Shown here piece after piece: positions 35,651-55,999 of a DNA stretch of 64,000 nucleotides. The translations under genes and the position numbers were made by a program. Source of the DNA: an uncultured Saprospiraceae bacterium. GTDB taxonomy: Bacteria; Bacteroidota; Bacteroidia; Chitinophagales; Saprospiraceae. The stretch spans positions 1-64,000 of the forward strand of contig CALLAE010000093.1 of NCBI GenBank assembly GCA_938002665.1. Reading direction: 5' to 3'. The number at the start of each line of letters is the position of its first letter. Positions within the stretch are counted from its first letter, which is position 1. Below the pieces are notes generated by a model, which did not search any database, was not told the origin of the DNA, and saw nothing but the letters and a program-made list of their open reading frames with translations.

Positions 35651-36715
35651 ATGCTAGCCAAACTAGAAGAAGTCTATAATCACTTCCTAACCATAGAAGA
35701 AAAACTATCTGATCCAGAGACAGTATCAGATATGAAAGTCTACAGTAAACTCAATAAAGAGTACAAGGGCCTACAAGAACTAGTAGATGCCTACAAAGAG
35801 TATAAGAACATTCTTGATAATTCTAAGAATGCTAAGGAGATGCTTTCTGACTCCGATCCTGACATGCAGGCGATGGCAAAAGAAGAACTTGCGGAATTAG
35901 AGCCAAAGCAAGAAGCCATAGAAGAAAAGCTTAGGATGCTTATGATTCCTAAAGACCCAGAGGATAAGCTAGATGTCATAATGGAGATAAGATCAGGAGC
36001 TGGAGGAGACGAGGCGTCAATTTTTGCTGGAGAACTGATGCGCTTATACATTAAGTACTTTGATACACATAAATGGAAGCATGAGGTGCTCTCACTCACC
36101 GAAGGTTCTGCAGGAGGCTATAGCAAAGTGGTAATGGAGATAAAGGGTAATGAGGTTTATGGTAAGCTCAAATTTGAGTCAGGGGCACACAGGGTACAAC
36201 GTGTACCTAAAACAGAATCACAGGGTAGAGTACATACTTCCGCGGCTACTGTAGCTGTGATGCCACAATACGAAATGGAAGACATACAGATCAAAAAAGA
36301 TGACTTACGGACTGATACCTTCAGAGCTAGTGGAGCGGGAGGGCAGCACGTCAACAAAACAGAATCTGGTGTTCGATTTACCCATCTACCTACAGGATTG
36401 ACAGGAGAGAGTACAGACTCTAGATCGCAGCACAGAAACAGAGAGATCGCAATGCAACGCTTGTATCAAAGAATTCAAGATGCACAGAAAGAGCGGGTCT
36501 ATGCGGAGCAAAAGTCTCAGAGGAAGTCCCTAGTGGGGTCTGGTGATAGGTCTGATAAGATTCGTACATACAATTTCCCTCAAAACAGATGTACCGATCA
36601 CCGTATCAATCTTACGTTGTACAGTCTAGGCAAGATTATGGATGGAGAGATAACAGAGATTATAGAAAAGCTACAGATGGCTGAGAATGCTCAGAAAATG
36701 CTGGAATCTGCCTAG
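35651..36715 (+). CDS. prfA: Peptide chain release factor 1
   Basis: 354 residues. It reads stop codons UAA and UAG. The GGQ peptidyl-hydrolysis motif lies in ASGAGGQHVNKTESGVR at about residues 225-241, and the decoding domain precedes it (GAHRVQRVPKTESQGRVHTSAATVAVMP). The PxT codon-reading motif region typical of RF1 is PKTESQGR. Monocistronic with a strong terminator 126 bases later. Confidence 0.96.
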   Translation: MLAKLEEVYNHFLTIEEKLSDPETVSDMKVYSKLNKEYKGLQELVDAYKEYKNILDNSKNAKEMLSDSDPDMQAMAKEELAELEPKQEAIEEKLRMLMIPKDPEDKLDVIMEIRSGAGGDEASIFAGELMRLYIKYFDTHKWKHEVLSLTEGSAGGYSKVVMEIKGNEVYGKLKFESGAHRVQRVPKTESQGRVHTSAATVAVMPQYEMEDIQIKKDDLRTDTFRASGAGGQHVNKTESGVRFTHLPTGLTGESTDSRSQHRNREIAMQRLYQRIQDAQKERVYAEQKSQRKSLVGSGDRSDKIRTYNFPQNRCTDHRINLTLYSLGKIMDGEITEIIEKLQMAENAQKMLESA

Positions 36716-36840: not shown

Positions 36841-36874
36841 AAATAGCGCAGTTTAGAGGCTGCGCTATTTTTTT
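36841..36874 (+). terminator. Terminator of prfA
   Basis: AAATAGCGCAG (36841-36851) pairs perfectly with CTGCGCTATTT (36860-36870) around an 8-base loop, followed by seven T. Confidence 0.9.
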
Positions 36875-36895
36875 GCTTATTTTCTCTATTTGGAT

Positions 36896-36926
36896 TTGGT
36901 CTAATTAAGCTTAGTCCGTATTTTTG
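36896..36926 (+). promoter_or_regulatory. Promoter of the porin-FMN operon
   Basis: TTG at 36896-36898, a 20-base spacer and TATTTTTG at 36919-36926: both elements and the spacing fit the Bacteroidota consensus (TTG-N19-21-TAnnTTTG). The porin ATG at 36945 lies 18 bases beyond. This is the best promoter in the window. Confidence 0.65.
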
Positions 36927-36944: not shown

Positions 36945-38102
36945 ATGACTTTTCGAAACCTCAGTATACTGGCCTTTTTAGTCTGCTACACAGCCATAGC
37001 CTGTGGCCAAACCACGATCAATTTCGATGAAGATAATTCTAATAAGCTCTATATTAAGCTTTATGGTCACGTAGATTACAACCAAAAAATAGAAAAAGGT
37101 ATCCATCATAATGGTAAGATGGATGTCCATCGCCTTGTCACCCTGATAGGATATCAGTTTAGCAGAAAGACACAATTTGTTTCTGAAATAGAAGTGGAGC
37201 ATGTTAAGGAAATTTTTGTTGAGCAAGCCTTTATTAAGCATCGACTGGCTAAAAGTATCTCCCTCAAAGCAGGTCTGATAATCATTCCTATGGGTATGGT
37301 AAACGAAATGCATGAGCCTACTTTTTTCTATTCTGTAGAACGACCATTATTAGACAAACTTATTATTCCGTCTACCTGGAGAGAGGTCGGGATAGGACTG
37401 ACAGGACTACTTCCAGAAAAGAGTTTAAAGTATCAGCTCTATCTAGTAAATAATCCGCTAGGCTATGATGGCTCCGCTAAAGTATCTGGTGCATCAGGTA
37501 TCAGAAAAGCAAGACAAAAAGGGGCAGAGGCAGTTGTTTCTTCTTTTCCGGGGTTGAGTGGGCAGATAGAGTATTTTGGTATAGACAGATTTAAATTAGG
37601 CATTTCTGGTTATTATGGAAAGACAAGTACTACTCTGGCGACCACCATGGACCAGTCATTAGAAAATTATAATGTTACGGTAGATAGTTCCACGGTAAAT
37701 ATGACAATGGCGACAGTTCACGGAATGTATACACCAGGCAATCTTACATTGAGGGGGCAGTATACTCTAAGTTCATTTCAGAACACGACAGCTTATAATG
37801 AATTTGCAAACAGTGATGTGCCAGAACTTATGCACGGTTACTACTTGCTAGCTGCTTACGATTTTCATAAAAGCGAAGAGATAACAGTTGCACCATTTGT
37901 TAGATTTTCTCAGCTGGATAACCATCTTAGAGTCAATGAAGCACTAGAAGAAAATCGTGCACTGAAGCAAAATATACTTACAGTGGGAGCAAACTATAAG
38001 CCACATCCTGGTGTCGTGTTTAAGTTTGATTATCAGTTTGTGCAGAATAGAGTGACCTCAAATTATAATAACCTCAATTTAGGAGTTGGCGTATGGTTCT
38101 AA
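36945..38102 (+). CDS. Outer-membrane porin
   Basis: 385 residues from the ATG at 36945 (a TTG at 36924 overlaps the promoter box). Signal peptide to about residue 22 (AIACGQ), then about 16 beta-strands (KLYIKLYGHVDYNQKIE, RKTQFVSEIEVEHVKEIFVEQAFIKH) with a C-terminal strand ending in Phe (GVGVWF). The block VEQAFIKHRLAKSISLKAGLIIIPMGMVNE is like the phosphate-selective porin (OprP/O) family. It overlaps the next gene by 10 bases, so the two proteins are made together. Confidence 0.85.
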   Translation: MTFRNLSILAFLVCYTAIACGQTTINFDEDNSNKLYIKLYGHVDYNQKIEKGIHHNGKMDVHRLVTLIGYQFSRKTQFVSEIEVEHVKEIFVEQAFIKHRLAKSISLKAGLIIIPMGMVNEMHEPTFFYSVERPLLDKLIIPSTWREVGIGLTGLLPEKSLKYQLYLVNNPLGYDGSAKVSGASGIRKARQKGAEAVVSSFPGLSGQIEYFGIDRFKLGISGYYGKTSTTLATTMDQSLENYNVTVDSSTVNMTMATVHGMYTPGNLTLRGQYTLSSFQNTTAYNEFANSDVPELMHGYYLLAAYDFHKSEEITVAPFVRFSQLDNHLRVNEALEENRALKQNILTVGANYKPHPGVVFKFDYQFVQNRVTSNYNNLNLGVGVWF

Positions 38103-38602
38103 TTATGTTACTTTTTATAAGCGGATTTACGCAGCAGTCTGATATTCTAGAACAGTATGACAAGCAGGTCAAAAAGACCATAAAAAAAGTCTACAAACAG
38201 GAACATCATGAACTAAAGAAGATAGAGCAAGGATTTTATGAGATTATAACTAAAGAGAGTTCTTTAGGCTACATACTGTTAGATGAAGTTGCTGCCTGCC
38301 ACTTAGGTGGATGTCCTAGCTCAGTAGGGCTTGATTTAGCAAAGGAGACCTCCTCTATTCAAGGCTCTGAATATTTTGATGTATTAGTTTTGTTAGACAA
38401 GGACAAGACAATCTTAAAGATTAAGATACTTAATTACTTTTCAGATTATGGTTATGAAGTAACCTCCAAAAAATATCTCGAAAAATTCCAAGGCAAAAGT
38501 ATTTGTGAATTTAGTTCTTCTACTGATGGAGTAGATGCCATATCTGGTGCTACGATATCTTCTATGGCTCTTGAAGGTTTCCTAGGCTTACACTGTAACT
38601 AA
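38093..38602 (+). CDS. FMN-binding domain protein (RnfG/NqrC-like)
   Basis: 169 residues. A short signal peptide (1-14) suggests export. The FMN-binding domain spans about 75-165: FDVLVLLDKDKTILKIKIL, YEVTSKKYLEKFQGK, and DAISGATISSMALEG, where the Thr of SGAT is the usual site of covalent FMN attachment by ApbE. An unusual Cys-rich pair ACHLGGC stands at about residue 66-72. It overlaps the porin gene by 10 bases. A periplasmic electron-carrier role is plausible but unproven; no flavin transferase is in the window. Confidence 0.82.
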   Translation: MVLIMLLFISGFTQQSDILEQYDKQVKKTIKKVYKQEHHELKKIEQGFYEIITKESSLGYILLDEVAACHLGGCPSSVGLDLAKETSSIQGSEYFDVLVLLDKDKTILKIKILNYFSDYGYEVTSKKYLEKFQGKSICEFSSSTDGVDAISGATISSMALEGFLGLHCN

Positions 38603-38741: not shown

Positions 38742-38780
38742 AGGAAAGGGATTCGGGGGTGAGTTCCTTTCCTTTTTTTT
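38742..38780 (+). terminator. Terminator of the porin-FMN operon
   Basis: AGGAAAGG (38742-38749) pairs with CCTTTCCT (38766-38773), followed by eight T. It lies 140 bases after the FMN gene stop. Confidence 0.82.
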
Positions 38781-38873: not shown

Positions 38874-39689
38874 TTAATTAAAGAATTTTTTGATCAGTTT
38901 GTTCACACCTCCGACATCTAACATTGTATCCTCAATCACTTTTTTAAATTCCTTTCCTCCTCTTCTGGAGGCTAACAATTTGGTGCCATCTTTTAGTGTA
39001 AGGCTTAGTTCACGATGATTGTAATCAGAAACATATTGCATGTTGACGAGAGTACTCTGAGAGATAGCATAAAAATCATACTGTAAAACCAAAAAGGACT
39101 TATAAAAGCCAAGATTCTTTACAGCTACAGACTCTTTACCATCATTGGTCATTATTTTAGTTACGACACCATCCGCTACTAAGTGAGTTATTTCGCTTAC
39201 ATCAAAAAACTTTACGAAGCCTTTACTGAGGTGTATGGCGATTCTTTTGGCCTTTAGTTCATTCTTCTCATTTACAAGATCCAGTAGCAATTCTATTTTT
39301 TCATTGTTTTTATGTTGCTCTATTTTATTGTAAGCTTTGGTTATTGCTGAAAGTAAGGCTTCATCCTCTAGCGGTTTATTCAGGTAATCTATTGCAGAAA
39401 ATTTTATTGCATTCATTATAAATTCACTCTCCATTTGGCCAGTGATGAATATGATTTCAAAATCAATTTTGTCTTGGGCTGCTAGCTTTTTTAGAATGTC
39501 AAAACTTGTCCCTTTGGGGAGTTGTATATCCATAAAGACAAGCTGGTATTTATTATCTGCCAGCGCAGCATATGCACTTTCTAAGTCATACACTTGATCA
39601 AGGTCAGTTATGTAGGGAGCCAGATGAGTGACTCTGCTTTTTATTAAGTCTGAAGTGTCGGGAAGGTCTTCTACAATTAAGGCTTTCAT
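38874..39689 (-). CDS. LytTR-family response regulator
   Basis: 271 residues. Receiver 1-125 with the acidic pocket VEDLPDT, the phospho-Asp in VFMDIQLPKGTSFDIL and the lysine in YLNKPLEDE. The linker ends near 155. LytTR DNA-binding domain about 160-265 (KGFVKFFDVSEITHLVADGVVTKI, TLVNMQYVSDYNHRELSLTLKDGTKLLASRRGGKEF). It follows the sensor gene by 5 bases and pairs with it. Confidence 0.9.
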   Translation of the reverse strand: MKALIVEDLPDTSDLIKSRVTHLAPYITDLDQVYDLESAYAALADNKYQLVFMDIQLPKGTSFDILKKLAAQDKIDFEIIFITGQMESEFIMNAIKFSAIDYLNKPLEDEALLSAITKAYNKIEQHKNNEKIELLLDLVNEKNELKAKRIAIHLSKGFVKFFDVSEITHLVADGVVTKIMTNDGKESVAVKNLGFYKSFLVLQYDFYAISQSTLVNMQYVSDYNHRELSLTLKDGTKLLASRRGGKEFKKVIEDTMLDVGGVNKLIKKFFN

Positions 39690-39694
39690 TTATG

Positions 39695-42643
39695 TCAGTT
39701 ATTTTCTGAGAAAGTAATTTCTACTCTTGTGCCAGATTTAGGAGCTTTTTTGTCTATTGTTTTGATTGTAATATTTTGATCCATTGCATTCAGGATACTT
39801 ACCCTTTTGAAAACAAGCTCAGTACCTCTGGATGTGTATGGAGAGATAGATTGCCGATGAAGTAGTTGTGCTTTTTTTCTTCCTATACCATTGTCGTCTA
39901 TAGTGCAGCTGACACCAAGTTTTGTTTTAAAAAAACTTACCATCAGCTTACCTTTTTTTTCTTTGTTGAGTAGCCCATGTTTAATAGCATTCTCTACGAA
40001 GGGTTGGATAATCATAGGAGGAAGATGTATACTGAGTAAGTCATCAGATTCTACTACCATTTCAAAGTCAAACTTGTCTTTGTATTGCAAAAGTTCGAAG
40101 TCTACATATAATTGGATAAGTTCCAGCTCACTACTTAGAGGGACACTATTATCCTCATTGATATTACTTCTGTCAATGTTGGAGCTGACACTTGCGTCCA
40201 AAAACCTCCTGATCAACTTTGAAAAAGAAACCAAGTATTTGTTTGCCTCTTCTGTCCGTTTATTTAGAATGAGTGCTTGAATGGTGCCGAGTACATTGAA
40301 AATGAAATGTGGGTTCATTTGAGACTGTAGTGCTTGGACTTCTAGATATTTTATTTGCTGGTCCTGCACGATGGTCACATCTCTAGTTCTTCTATATCGC
40401 CAAAACAAATAGAAAGAAAGTATGATGAAGGCTAGTAAAGCAAAGGCGGCGTACTTGTAGAAATCAGCGTCTCTATAGAAAGGTATGTTTATTTCAAAAT
40501 CTAATATCGCCTTAGGAGTGACGTTAGATAATCCGAAATTACTGGTTTGAGATTTTACTTTAAAACGATAACTGCCAGAACTTAAGTTGTTATAATTAAT
40601 CTTGTTCTGTGTTACCCAGGGAGACCATCCTTCATCTACATTTTCTAAGTAATAGGAGTATCTGGTCTCATGAGGCTTATTGAATCCAAGCCCTTCAAAA
40701 GAGAGAGAAATGTTGTTTTGCCCACGTTCTAATTTAACAGATTCATCGTTATTCCAGGCTAAGGAGTTGTCATTGATATCAGAAATTATGAGATTAGAAA
40801 AATCTTCTTCAAAAGTAAGTTTATTGATGTCCACATAGGACAGATAGGTTGAAGAAGGAATATACAGGATGTCACCATTTAGAACTAGACCACTTTGGGC
40901 AACCTCTTCTCCAAAAAAGCCATTCCTATGATTGAAGGTTTTGATAATGACATTACCATTGTCATTATACTCTCTTAAGTTCAGAATGCTGAAGCCATTA
41001 GAAGTTCCGATGGCTAAGATTTGATTAGGAAGTACAAGTAGTGCCATTACATATTCACCTAGGAACATTTCTTTGCCTATCGCAGTGAGCTCTTTTTGAG
41101 ACTCATCCAGGCACCATAGTCCTTTGGTATTGCCTATCCATACTTTATCGCTTTTCTGGTCTGTGGCAAGACAGATAGCTCCAGAAGAGTCCTGAGGAAA
41201 TAGATGATTGTAGCTGGTAAAATTTTTTTCGACATGATCGAATGAAGCAAGATCTCTATATGTTCCTACCCAGTAACTTTCTTCATCTTTGCCTTCAATA
41301 GAGACAACGTATCTGGAAATGCTTTTGCCAGTATCGTCAAACGTATAATGTATTTTATCTATTTCTTGATCCAGAACTCCTATAGACTTATATCCTCCTA
41401 TAACTATTTCGTCATTAATGGAATCATAATAAGAGACTAACGAGAAATTTTCAGATTGTAATGGATAGGTTTCAAACTCTTGATTTTTTTTGTATTTGTG
41501 TAAAAAGTAATTACCCGGAAAGTAAAGGTTGCCGGCCTTGTCGATACAGCTGCCGTAATTGTAACGATCCTGGCTAGGAGAAAAGATAGGAAGACGCTTC
41601 TTATTCTCTAGATCAACTTCATAGATGCCTCTAGAAAAAGAGGTATAAACAAAGCCATCATTATATGGCAATATAGACCAAGCATCAGACACAAGCTCTA
41701 AGGGCACTTTAGCGATATGGTTCTTTGCGAAAAACTCTATACCATTTTCATGAGATACCCAAAGATTGTCATCTATATCGAGCATACAAATTACTCGGGT
41801 GGTGTTTGATACCATGTACTCATTTATGACTTTAGCACCTGAGACCTTGATAACTTTGTCTTTAGAATTAAGATAGTATAGTCCGTCATTGTTGTTTAGC
41901 CTAAGATCTTTTAGTTCAGAATAGTCTGGTCCTTTCCTATCGTAGCTCAGGCTGATTTTTTTCAAGTCATTAGCTAGGATACCCATTTTCCTCCCACCAG
42001 AATAAGGTTTGCGAATCAAGATGTTTTCTTGACCGCGCTGATTCATTTTGATATTAAAGTAGTCCGATTCATCTGCTAGATATACCACCTCTTGGCTCAT
42101 AACATCATACAGGACGTTGTGCTTTTTGTGGAAGGCTACAAGGCGACCATCTGACAGTTTGGAAATTAGGTTTACAGTATCCTGTAGGAAGATGGATTCT
42201 TCTTGCTCAAAAGAATCTAGATTGTAGACTATTATCTCTTTAGTGCTAGTACAGACATATAGTTTGTCGTCTTTAATTTTATTGAGGAAGCTTTTGTTTA
42301 AGAAGTTTTTGTTGATGGTTAGAGGTTTGAAGTTTTGGCCATCATACTGTAGTACCGTTCCGTTTTTCTTTGTCGTAAAAAAGTGTAGCCTGCCCTTTCC
42401 ATCTTCGTAAATGTGATTAACATTCTGTACAGGTAGATCTAGTTTGGTAAATTTTTCTCCATTGAATCGTGCGACTCCTTTTTTTGTAGCTACCCAGATA
42501 TAGCCCCTTGAGTCTTGTAACATGTCCATCACTTGTATCTGTGGCAGACCATCATGTGTGGTGTAATGCTTGTCTGGATAGATGACTTGAGCAAATAGAG
42601 ACGTGCTAAGAAATAATAATATGAGGAGTCTTGCTAACTTCAA
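39695..42643 (-). CDS. Reg_prop/Y_Y_Y sensor histidine kinase (LytS-type kinase core)
   Basis: 982 residues with a TTG start at 42643, needed because the signal peptide (MKLARLLILLFLSTSLFAQ) begins there. Residues about 25-650 form two seven-bladed Reg_prop propellers (HTTHDGLPQIQVMDMLQDSRGYIWVAT), then a Y_Y_Y domain (about 655-725), a membrane span (about 733-752) and a His_kinase core with LQSQMNPHFIFNVLGTIQALI (phospho-His) and IQPFVENAIKHGLL. Unlike hybrid systems of Bacteroides it has no attached receiver; the LytTR gene downstream takes that role. The ligand is unknown. Confidence 0.92.
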   Translation of the reverse strand: MKLARLLILLFLSTSLFAQVIYPDKHYTTHDGLPQIQVMDMLQDSRGYIWVATKKGVARFNGEKFTKLDLPVQNVNHIYEDGKGRLHFFTTKKNGTVLQYDGQNFKPLTINKNFLNKSFLNKIKDDKLYVCTSTKEIIVYNLDSFEQEESIFLQDTVNLISKLSDGRLVAFHKKHNVLYDVMSQEVVYLADESDYFNIKMNQRGQENILIRKPYSGGRKMGILANDLKKISLSYDRKGPDYSELKDLRLNNNDGLYYLNSKDKVIKVSGAKVINEYMVSNTTRVICMLDIDDNLWVSHENGIEFFAKNHIAKVPLELVSDAWSILPYNDGFVYTSFSRGIYEVDLENKKRLPIFSPSQDRYNYGSCIDKAGNLYFPGNYFLHKYKKNQEFETYPLQSENFSLVSYYDSINDEIVIGGYKSIGVLDQEIDKIHYTFDDTGKSISRYVVSIEGKDEESYWVGTYRDLASFDHVEKNFTSYNHLFPQDSSGAICLATDQKSDKVWIGNTKGLWCLDESQKELTAIGKEMFLGEYVMALLVLPNQILAIGTSNGFSILNLREYNDNGNVIIKTFNHRNGFFGEEVAQSGLVLNGDILYIPSSTYLSYVDINKLTFEEDFSNLIISDINDNSLAWNNDESVKLERGQNNISLSFEGLGFNKPHETRYSYYLENVDEGWSPWVTQNKINYNNLSSGSYRFKVKSQTSNFGLSNVTPKAILDFEINIPFYRDADFYKYAAFALLAFIILSFYLFWRYRRTRDVTIVQDQQIKYLEVQALQSQMNPHFIFNVLGTIQALILNKRTEEANKYLVSFSKLIRRFLDASVSSNIDRSNINEDNSVPLSSELELIQLYVDFELLQYKDKFDFEMVVESDDLLSIHLPPMIIQPFVENAIKHGLLNKEKKGKLMVSFFKTKLGVSCTIDDNGIGRKKAQLLHRQSISPYTSRGTELVFKRVSILNAMDQNITIKTIDKKAPKSGTRVEITFSENN

Positions 42644-55898: not shown

Positions 55899-55999
55899 CG
55901 GATTGGAACAAAAGGATAGGGTAATATTCTTATTTAGATTTAATCTAGATTTTATTGCAGCCAACTCCAAATAAGCCTAAACGTCTCTTTTACAGCATG

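Follow-up and report, generated by a model that had tools for sequence, protein, structure and literature searches.

Why should the gene for an outer-membrane porin overlap that of a predicted periplasmic flavoprotein, and what might the two proteins accomplish together? The question is raised by a pair of genes in the 64,000-nucleotide stretch of DNA analysed here ('the window'), which comes from an uncultured member of the Saprospiraceae whose draft genome amounts to 3.76 Mb and is 87.5% complete. The answer that we favour, and consider fairly probable, is that the pair forms a Fur-controlled iron-assimilation unit, in which the pore would admit iron and its partner, flavinylated by ApbE, would reduce Fe(III) for FeoB. 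The principal features of the locus are collected in Table 1.

Table 1. Positions in the window of the gene pair and of the signals discussed in the text
Feature	Positions	Strand	Remarks
Fur-box-like palindrome, CTATTTGGATTTGGTCTAATTAA	36886..36908	+	17/20 positions of TTATTTAGAYNNNRTCTAAATAA; centre 48 nt 5' of porin ATG
Bacteroidota-type promoter candidate, TTTG-N20-TAnnTTTG	36895..36926	+	Perfect match; palindrome overlaps it
Porin gene	36945..38102	+	From ORF list; ATG at 36945, 385 aa
FMN-binding protein gene	38093..38602	+	From ORF list; 169 aa, predicted periplasmic
Intrinsic-terminator-like hairpin	38742..38773	+	14 pairs, then T run; 140 nt past FMN stop
Second Fur-box-like palindrome	55930..55952	-	17/20; before sdhC-sdhA; same putative regulon

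The two genes have 10 nucleotides in common (38093–38102), just as an earlier note on this DNA had it. The overlap coincides with a conserved porin ending, W-F-stop (TGG TTC TAA), within which ATGGTTCTAA starts the FMN gene; the mechanical ORF of the porin begins further 5', at TTG 36924. An identical overlap occurs in four Saprospiraceae relatives and at seven loci of named genomes outside that family. The 5' neighbour of the porin (35651–36715), prfA-like by eye, is separated from the pair by a terminator-like hairpin (36841–36870), and the single terminator that the earlier note ascribed to both genes is recognizable as the downstream hairpin of Table 1. With hairpins on both sides, the pair is therefore a two-gene transcription unit. 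Just past its terminator (38874–42643) lie, by eye, a convergent LytTR-like response regulator and a large sensor-kinase-like gene; nothing at these positions indicates that they belong to the pair.

No Pfam family matches the porin above its cut-off. Its structural model (pLDDT 92.5) has about 16 strands, and the closest folds are OmpC, OmpU and Omp-Pst1 (E below 1e-12). In general porins the constriction loop is located after strand 5, and the model places a loop of 32 residues (114–145) between strands 5 and 6. The modelled protein thus has the 16-strand barrel, and the loop after strand 5, of a general outer-membrane porin, and we infer that residues 114–145 would be the constriction loop, folded inward. 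Four residues in the loop (N120, H123, E124 and R133) are invariant in 100/100 aligned rows. Membership of the phosphate-selective porin O/P family (PF07396) was considered and rejected, since the window porin obtained no PF07396 row in the scan; among the 100 aligned porins, 14 match that family at E <= 0.001.

The second protein begins with what looks, by eye, like a signal peptide, and it matches the FMN_bind profile (PF04205) with 31.6 bits, the cut-off being 22. Searched by sequence against the PDB it finds nothing at E <= 10, and fold comparison was used instead: the model (pLDDT 87) is of the RnfG/NqrC type (9eri_G and 7zc6_G, Z 11.4; NqrC, Z 9.6). It is not RnfG, for which it scores 20.6 bits against a curated cut-off of 102, and the profile scan gave no row for it in the nqrC family; the other FMN_bind protein of this genome sits in the nqr cluster. 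The SGATISS motif singled out in the earlier note is present, as part of a flavinylation motif, DAISGATIS, that follows the pattern D..SGAT.S. We take this pattern, with its threonine, to be the attachment motif for ApbE, and the expected target to be T154; G152, T154 and S156 are invariant in 106/106 aligned rows. Given the motif, the fold and the one ApbE gene of the source genome, the protein would carry covalent FMN at T154, attached by ApbE. The cluster ACHLGGC, noted previously too, places cysteines at 69 and 74 (CHLGGC), and further cysteines occur at 138 and 168.

A locus search with the FMN protein alone yielded none, and an alignment of porins was used as the query instead. Close to home the pair is patchy: the FMN protein occurs in seven of 60 genomes sampled among relatives, its own included, and within the genus the pair is found in the source genome and in three of 13 others. 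The six other FMN-bearing genomes of the relatives' sample all have the porin upstream, four with the 10-nucleotide overlap. Among 395 genomes drawn from across the phylum, 35 possess a close porin (at least 300 bits against a 100-row porin profile), and in 35/35 the FMN gene lies beside it. A match to the FMN profile was found in 36 of the 395, four of which (G107, G204, G216 and G243) have no close porin; two of these matches are RnfG, and one is the porin-less locus L018, described below. The remaining 32 are among the 35 close-porin genomes, adjacency being judged by coordinates, and the FMN gene was found as well in the other three (G327, G285 and G063), with one ORF between the genes in G285. 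Named genomes supplied 458 candidate stretches with a porin relative, and in 79 of the best 80, which were kept, the FMN gene is downstream of the porin; L102 has the porin and no FMN gene. No FMN match was obtained at five porin loci that have Fur upstream (L214, L215 and L218–L220). Counted from the other side, the porin is directly upstream of 106/106 non-duplicate FMN genes, after removal of two RnfG loci (L030 and L039), of L018, where an FMN and a TM gene occur without a porin, and of repeats from the same genome (L004, L040–L043 and L072). The earlier note had allowed that the pair might be an accident of one strain; the 35/35 and 79/80 counts exclude this, and the pair is old and widely kept in the Bacteroidota and their kin.

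Two observations from this survey deserve mention in their own right. At L018 (G216:C11, 965–2915), one operon without a porin encodes a protein of 308 aa together with an FMN-binding and a four-TM protein; this operon adjoins a ferritin-like gene (by eye), has an 18/20 operator upstream and represents a second form of the module, one that lacks the porin. And contigs labelled 'archaeon' (L088) and 'Bacteroides fragilis' (L096) carry the pair much as other Bacteroidales do, and are probably mislabelled bins.

What controls the pair? The earlier note credited it with the best promoter in the window. This is not established: there are two matches in the window to TTTG-N20-TAnnTTTG, which we take to be the Bacteroidota promoter consensus, against 2.4 expected from Markov shuffles, and the match at 36895 is not exceptional. 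A palindrome over this element was missed at the time. The operator to which it conforms was drawn from six aligned porin upstreams, belonging to the window's genome, three of its genus and two of its family. Palindromes of 17/20 quality are expected 0.053 times per 64 kb, and the window has two, before the porin and sdhC; in the three same-genus relatives the palindrome before the porin scores 18/20. At 17/20 or better the operator occurs in 29 of 95 porin upstreams; other ORFs have it in 10 of 491 upstreams, and it appears in two of 1,900 Markov shuffles. Judged by coordinates, each of the ten control-ORF hits lies in an intergenic region shared with the pair's operon or with the regulator gene before it, or in that of the FMN operon at L018. 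Outside the named genomes, 15 of 16 further upstream regions that had no part in drawing the operator reach the same score; among the porin upstreams of named genomes, just 8 of 73 do so.

The operator keeps telling company. In the source genome, which encodes both Fur (101.6 bits) and FeoAB, 0.01 sites of at least 19/20 are expected and three are found, before feoAB (19/20), nqrA (19/20) and a cytochrome c gene (20/20) that leads an operon resembling alternative complex III (named by eye). The complex III, nqr and sdhC sites recur in genomes of the same genus. Six genomes of three other families have the operator before the porin operon. In these six, which belong to other classes, it precedes fur-feoB (G241), fur-feoAB (G182) and feoAB (G293 and G192) too, and it is found also before iscA-sufB (G161) and, twice, before TonB receptors (G245); a 17/20 site precedes katG in G241, and one site in G182 (L309) has no iron gene behind it. 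The 17-base core of the operator, counted genome-wide, does not exceed its reversed control (11 versus 8 in the source genome, and below control in three relatives), and the weight here rests on full 23-base matches and their positions. Because the operator stands before fur itself, feo and suf, we read the palindrome as a Fur box: by all appearances it is a putative one, and the pair shares with fur and iron-uptake genes the common operator by which a Fur regulon is known.

The direction of control is less plain. Operator centres lie about 48 nt before the start codon of the porin and 53 nt before that of feoA, and about 150 and 120 nt before those of nqrA and complex III. Such spacing would fit an iron-loaded Fur that represses the porin and feoA and activates nqrA and complex III. 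A box before nqr, complex III and sdh, as seen in this lineage, is not predicted by plain induction at low iron and counts against the favoured reading. As an observation apart, the boxes before sdhC-sdhA in the window, nqr and alternative complex III (L277 and L273) suggest that the whole respiratory chain of the genus is under iron control.

Genes that neighbour the pair point in the same direction. Among 58 loci of the pair that have long flanks, 15 carry an iron gene ahead of it in the same orientation: FeoB in 6, Fur in 7 and a ferric-binding protein in 5, with overlap among these counts. FeoB or a ferric-binding protein is present in 11. The clearest case is L177, where the gene order is fur, feoA, feoB, porin, FMN, membrane protein, apbE. 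For the binding protein of L174, the PDB offers matches to ferric-binding proteins of known structure (best match 3wae, E 9e-92); a phosphonate or thiamine identity, suggested by weak NCBIfam names only, was set aside in favour of this ferric-binding-like result. The iron families were picked after being seen in L151, L174, L177 and L178; the loci among the 15 added after that choice are L198, L205, L206, L209, L212, L213, L225 and L226. Control DNA amounting to 400 kb, taken from 20 genomes in the same groups, gave no hit with these queries.

The 80 named-genome loci, mostly Bacteroidales, are of another kind. No FeoB, FeoA, Fur or FbpA was found in reach of them, and the same query set hit just ApbE and a thioredoxin-like gene, in L080. 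With no iron neighbours and mostly no box in the Bacteroidales, the link to iron is therefore unsupported for that branch. An RIC-like di-iron protein accompanies 12 of the 80, and a LuxR-type regulator 17, directly upstream of the pair in 15. In L100, L108 and other named Bacteroidales, an RIC/hemerythrin-like protein and a LuxR-type regulator lie directly upstream, possibly a sign of control by NO or oxygen. The sister porins, which are more distantly related, have company of their own: 12 of 22 porin loci without an FMN match have genes for imelysin and a di-haem oxidoreductase, some with a Rieske protein too. The order of sister porin, imelysin and di-haem oxidoreductase is fixed (L154, L156–L164, L166 and L168), and this is probably another iron unit with a redox protein.

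In other classes the operon is longer. The order there is porin, FMN protein, a membrane protein of 160–200 aa and, often, ApbE; an ApbE-like gene is present in 28 of the 58 long-flank loci. By eye the membrane partner has four hydrophobic stretches. One of its histidines is invariant and another nearly so (H78 and H76 of the first row). When 21 members were compared with Pfam, a weak match to cytochrome b561 (E 2e-5) emerged for one, and the five membrane classes of a published flavinylation survey drew no match at E <= 0.1. Variants occur (e.g. L189, a pair without the TM gene, and L208 and L210, in which FMN-TM-ApbE genes diverge from the porin). Beside the window pair no NapH-, MsrQ-, PepSY-, DsbD- or NQR/RNF-like membrane protein was seen by eye, and a search for the four-TM gene in the source genome, at its 87.5% completeness, found none. 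Across 107 pairs, the window's included, a CxxGGC-like motif occurs without the membrane partner in 53, the partner without the motif in 29, neither in 25 and both in none. The tree provides just one independent contrast on supported branches; we therefore describe this exclusion as a pattern of lineages and claim no correlation beyond shared descent. At L080 (7148–8587) the porin, a CxxGGC-type FMN gene, a thioredoxin-like gene and ApbE stand in a row, the sole such arrangement seen, and from this one locus we would guess, by analogy, at a thiol donor for the window's FMN protein.

How might the parts work together? When iron is scarce, Fur would come off the operator that overlaps the promoter, and both proteins would be made from a single transcript, the overlapping start probably coupling their translation. 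The porin would act as a 16-stranded diffusion pore through which iron, ferrous or as small ferric chelates, enters the periplasm. There the FMN protein, with one FMN placed at T154 by ApbE, would reduce Fe(III) or keep iron reduced, and FeoAB would then carry Fe(II) inward. In many relatives the neighbouring four-helix protein, with its conserved histidines, probably supplies the FMN with electrons from the membrane; in the window's lineage, which lacks the four-TM gene beside the pair, the cysteines of CxxGGC may accept electrons from a thiol donor. We read the pair as serving iron uptake because iron regulation, feo neighbours and a flavin protein with a dedicated pore come together in it. 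The earlier note guessed at iron or a sulfur compound as the substrate; the operator common to fur, feoAB, suf and TonB receptors, and the FeoB, Fur and ferric-binding neighbours, speak for the iron half of that guess.

Other readings of the same facts have to be weighed. The flavoprotein might spare iron rather than gather it, by replacing a haem or Fe-S carrier of the periplasm at low iron, with the porin providing general nutrient entry. We think this unlikely, though it deserves a hearing: in this lineage the box also stands before the iron-rich nqr, complex III and sdh, and the interchange of flavins and cytochromes has been argued (PMC8238504). Sparing needs no dedicated porin kept with the flavoprotein, however, and the FeoB and ferric-binding genes beside 11 of the 58 long-flank pairs speak against it. 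An operator of respiratory or oxygen type, in place of a Fur box, would assign the pair to energy metabolism; nqr, complex III and sdh do bear the palindrome in the Saprospiraceae, but in other classes it stands before fur (two genomes), feoAB, suf and TonB-receptor genes, and to this reading we give the least credence of all.

The fixed pairing of a porin with a redox protein also recalls the porin-cytochrome complexes, and the two might form a conduit for respiration of extracellular acceptors, with the porin channelling the flavoprotein or soluble shuttles and the four-TM partner as a possible outlet for quinol. A general-porin fold of 16 strands seems too narrow to surround a protein in its folded state; beside the listed pairs we noticed neither a multihaem nor an extracellular flavoprotein gene, and the operator indicates iron homeostasis; such a conduit strikes us as improbable. 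Much the same must be said, with a little more emphasis, of a periplasmic disulfide or sulfur reductase marked by CxxGGC and a thioredoxin-like neighbour. The motif is present in 53 of 107 proteins, and L080 has the order porin, FMN(Cys), thioredoxin-like, ApbE; against this, 54 of the 107 are without the motif, the thioredoxin-like gene adjoins the FMN gene in a single locus, and iron neighbours are found where the FMN protein has no CxxGGC. We are left preferring iron assimilation. A more ambitious form of it, in which flavin-based iron reduction at an outer-membrane pore is Fur-controlled throughout the phylum, through a porin, a periplasmic protein flavinylated by ApbE and a small four-helix membrane electron donor of a new class, the last swapped by this genome's branch for a redox-active cysteine pair, we advance tentatively, with somewhat less than even confidence.

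If true, iron assimilation by the pair would add a flavin route to the iron toolbox of the Bacteroidota. It touches two open questions: how Fe(II) is supplied to FeoB without a known ferric reductase, and how ferrous iron passes the Gram-negative outer membrane. Small, strongly predicted in structure and conserved in many families, the pair makes both questions testable. The operator also offers a candidate Fur box in a group where the Fur that has been studied, from P. gingivalis, fails to bind the box of E. coli (PMC6613475).

Our literature search, which covered accessible article text, found no description of the porin-FMN pair; supplementary tables may list the pair uncommented, and the word 'porin' is absent from the accessible text of PMC11334425. 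The nearest relatives in function are the iron-assimilation clusters of the flavinylation survey (PMC8238504, eLife 2021), namely PepSY-like, MsrQ-like with VIT1, and P19-FTR1-FMN. Like these, the pair joins FMN_bind or another ApbE substrate to iron transporters, for which periplasmic iron reduction was proposed there; a porin like that of the pair has no mention, neither 'porin' nor 'FeoB' occurring in the accessible main text of the survey. The four-TM partner matches none of that survey's five membrane classes by Pfam. The porins near feoAB in Geobacter and Desulfuromonas, proposed for entry of ferrous iron (PMC545781, Genome Biol 2004), are likewise under Fur boxes; these are PF07396-like or OprB-like, come from another phylum with another Fur-box sequence, and have no flavoprotein partner mentioned in the accessible text of that paper. 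With RnfG and NqrC the FMN protein shares its fold and the SGAT attachment motif, but it is 169 aa long, has the CxxGGC loop and is linked to a porin instead of to Rnf/Nqr subunits. A final comparison is with the DUF3570 proteins, a family to which none of the 100 scanned porins shows a Pfam match. These are presumably located in the outer membrane, and probably form a barrel there too. They are ApbE substrates, as the FMN protein would be, and they occur with thioredoxin-like proteins, at times, and DUF4266 (PMC8238504). In the pair, unlike in DUF3570, the barrel and the flavoprotein are two genes.
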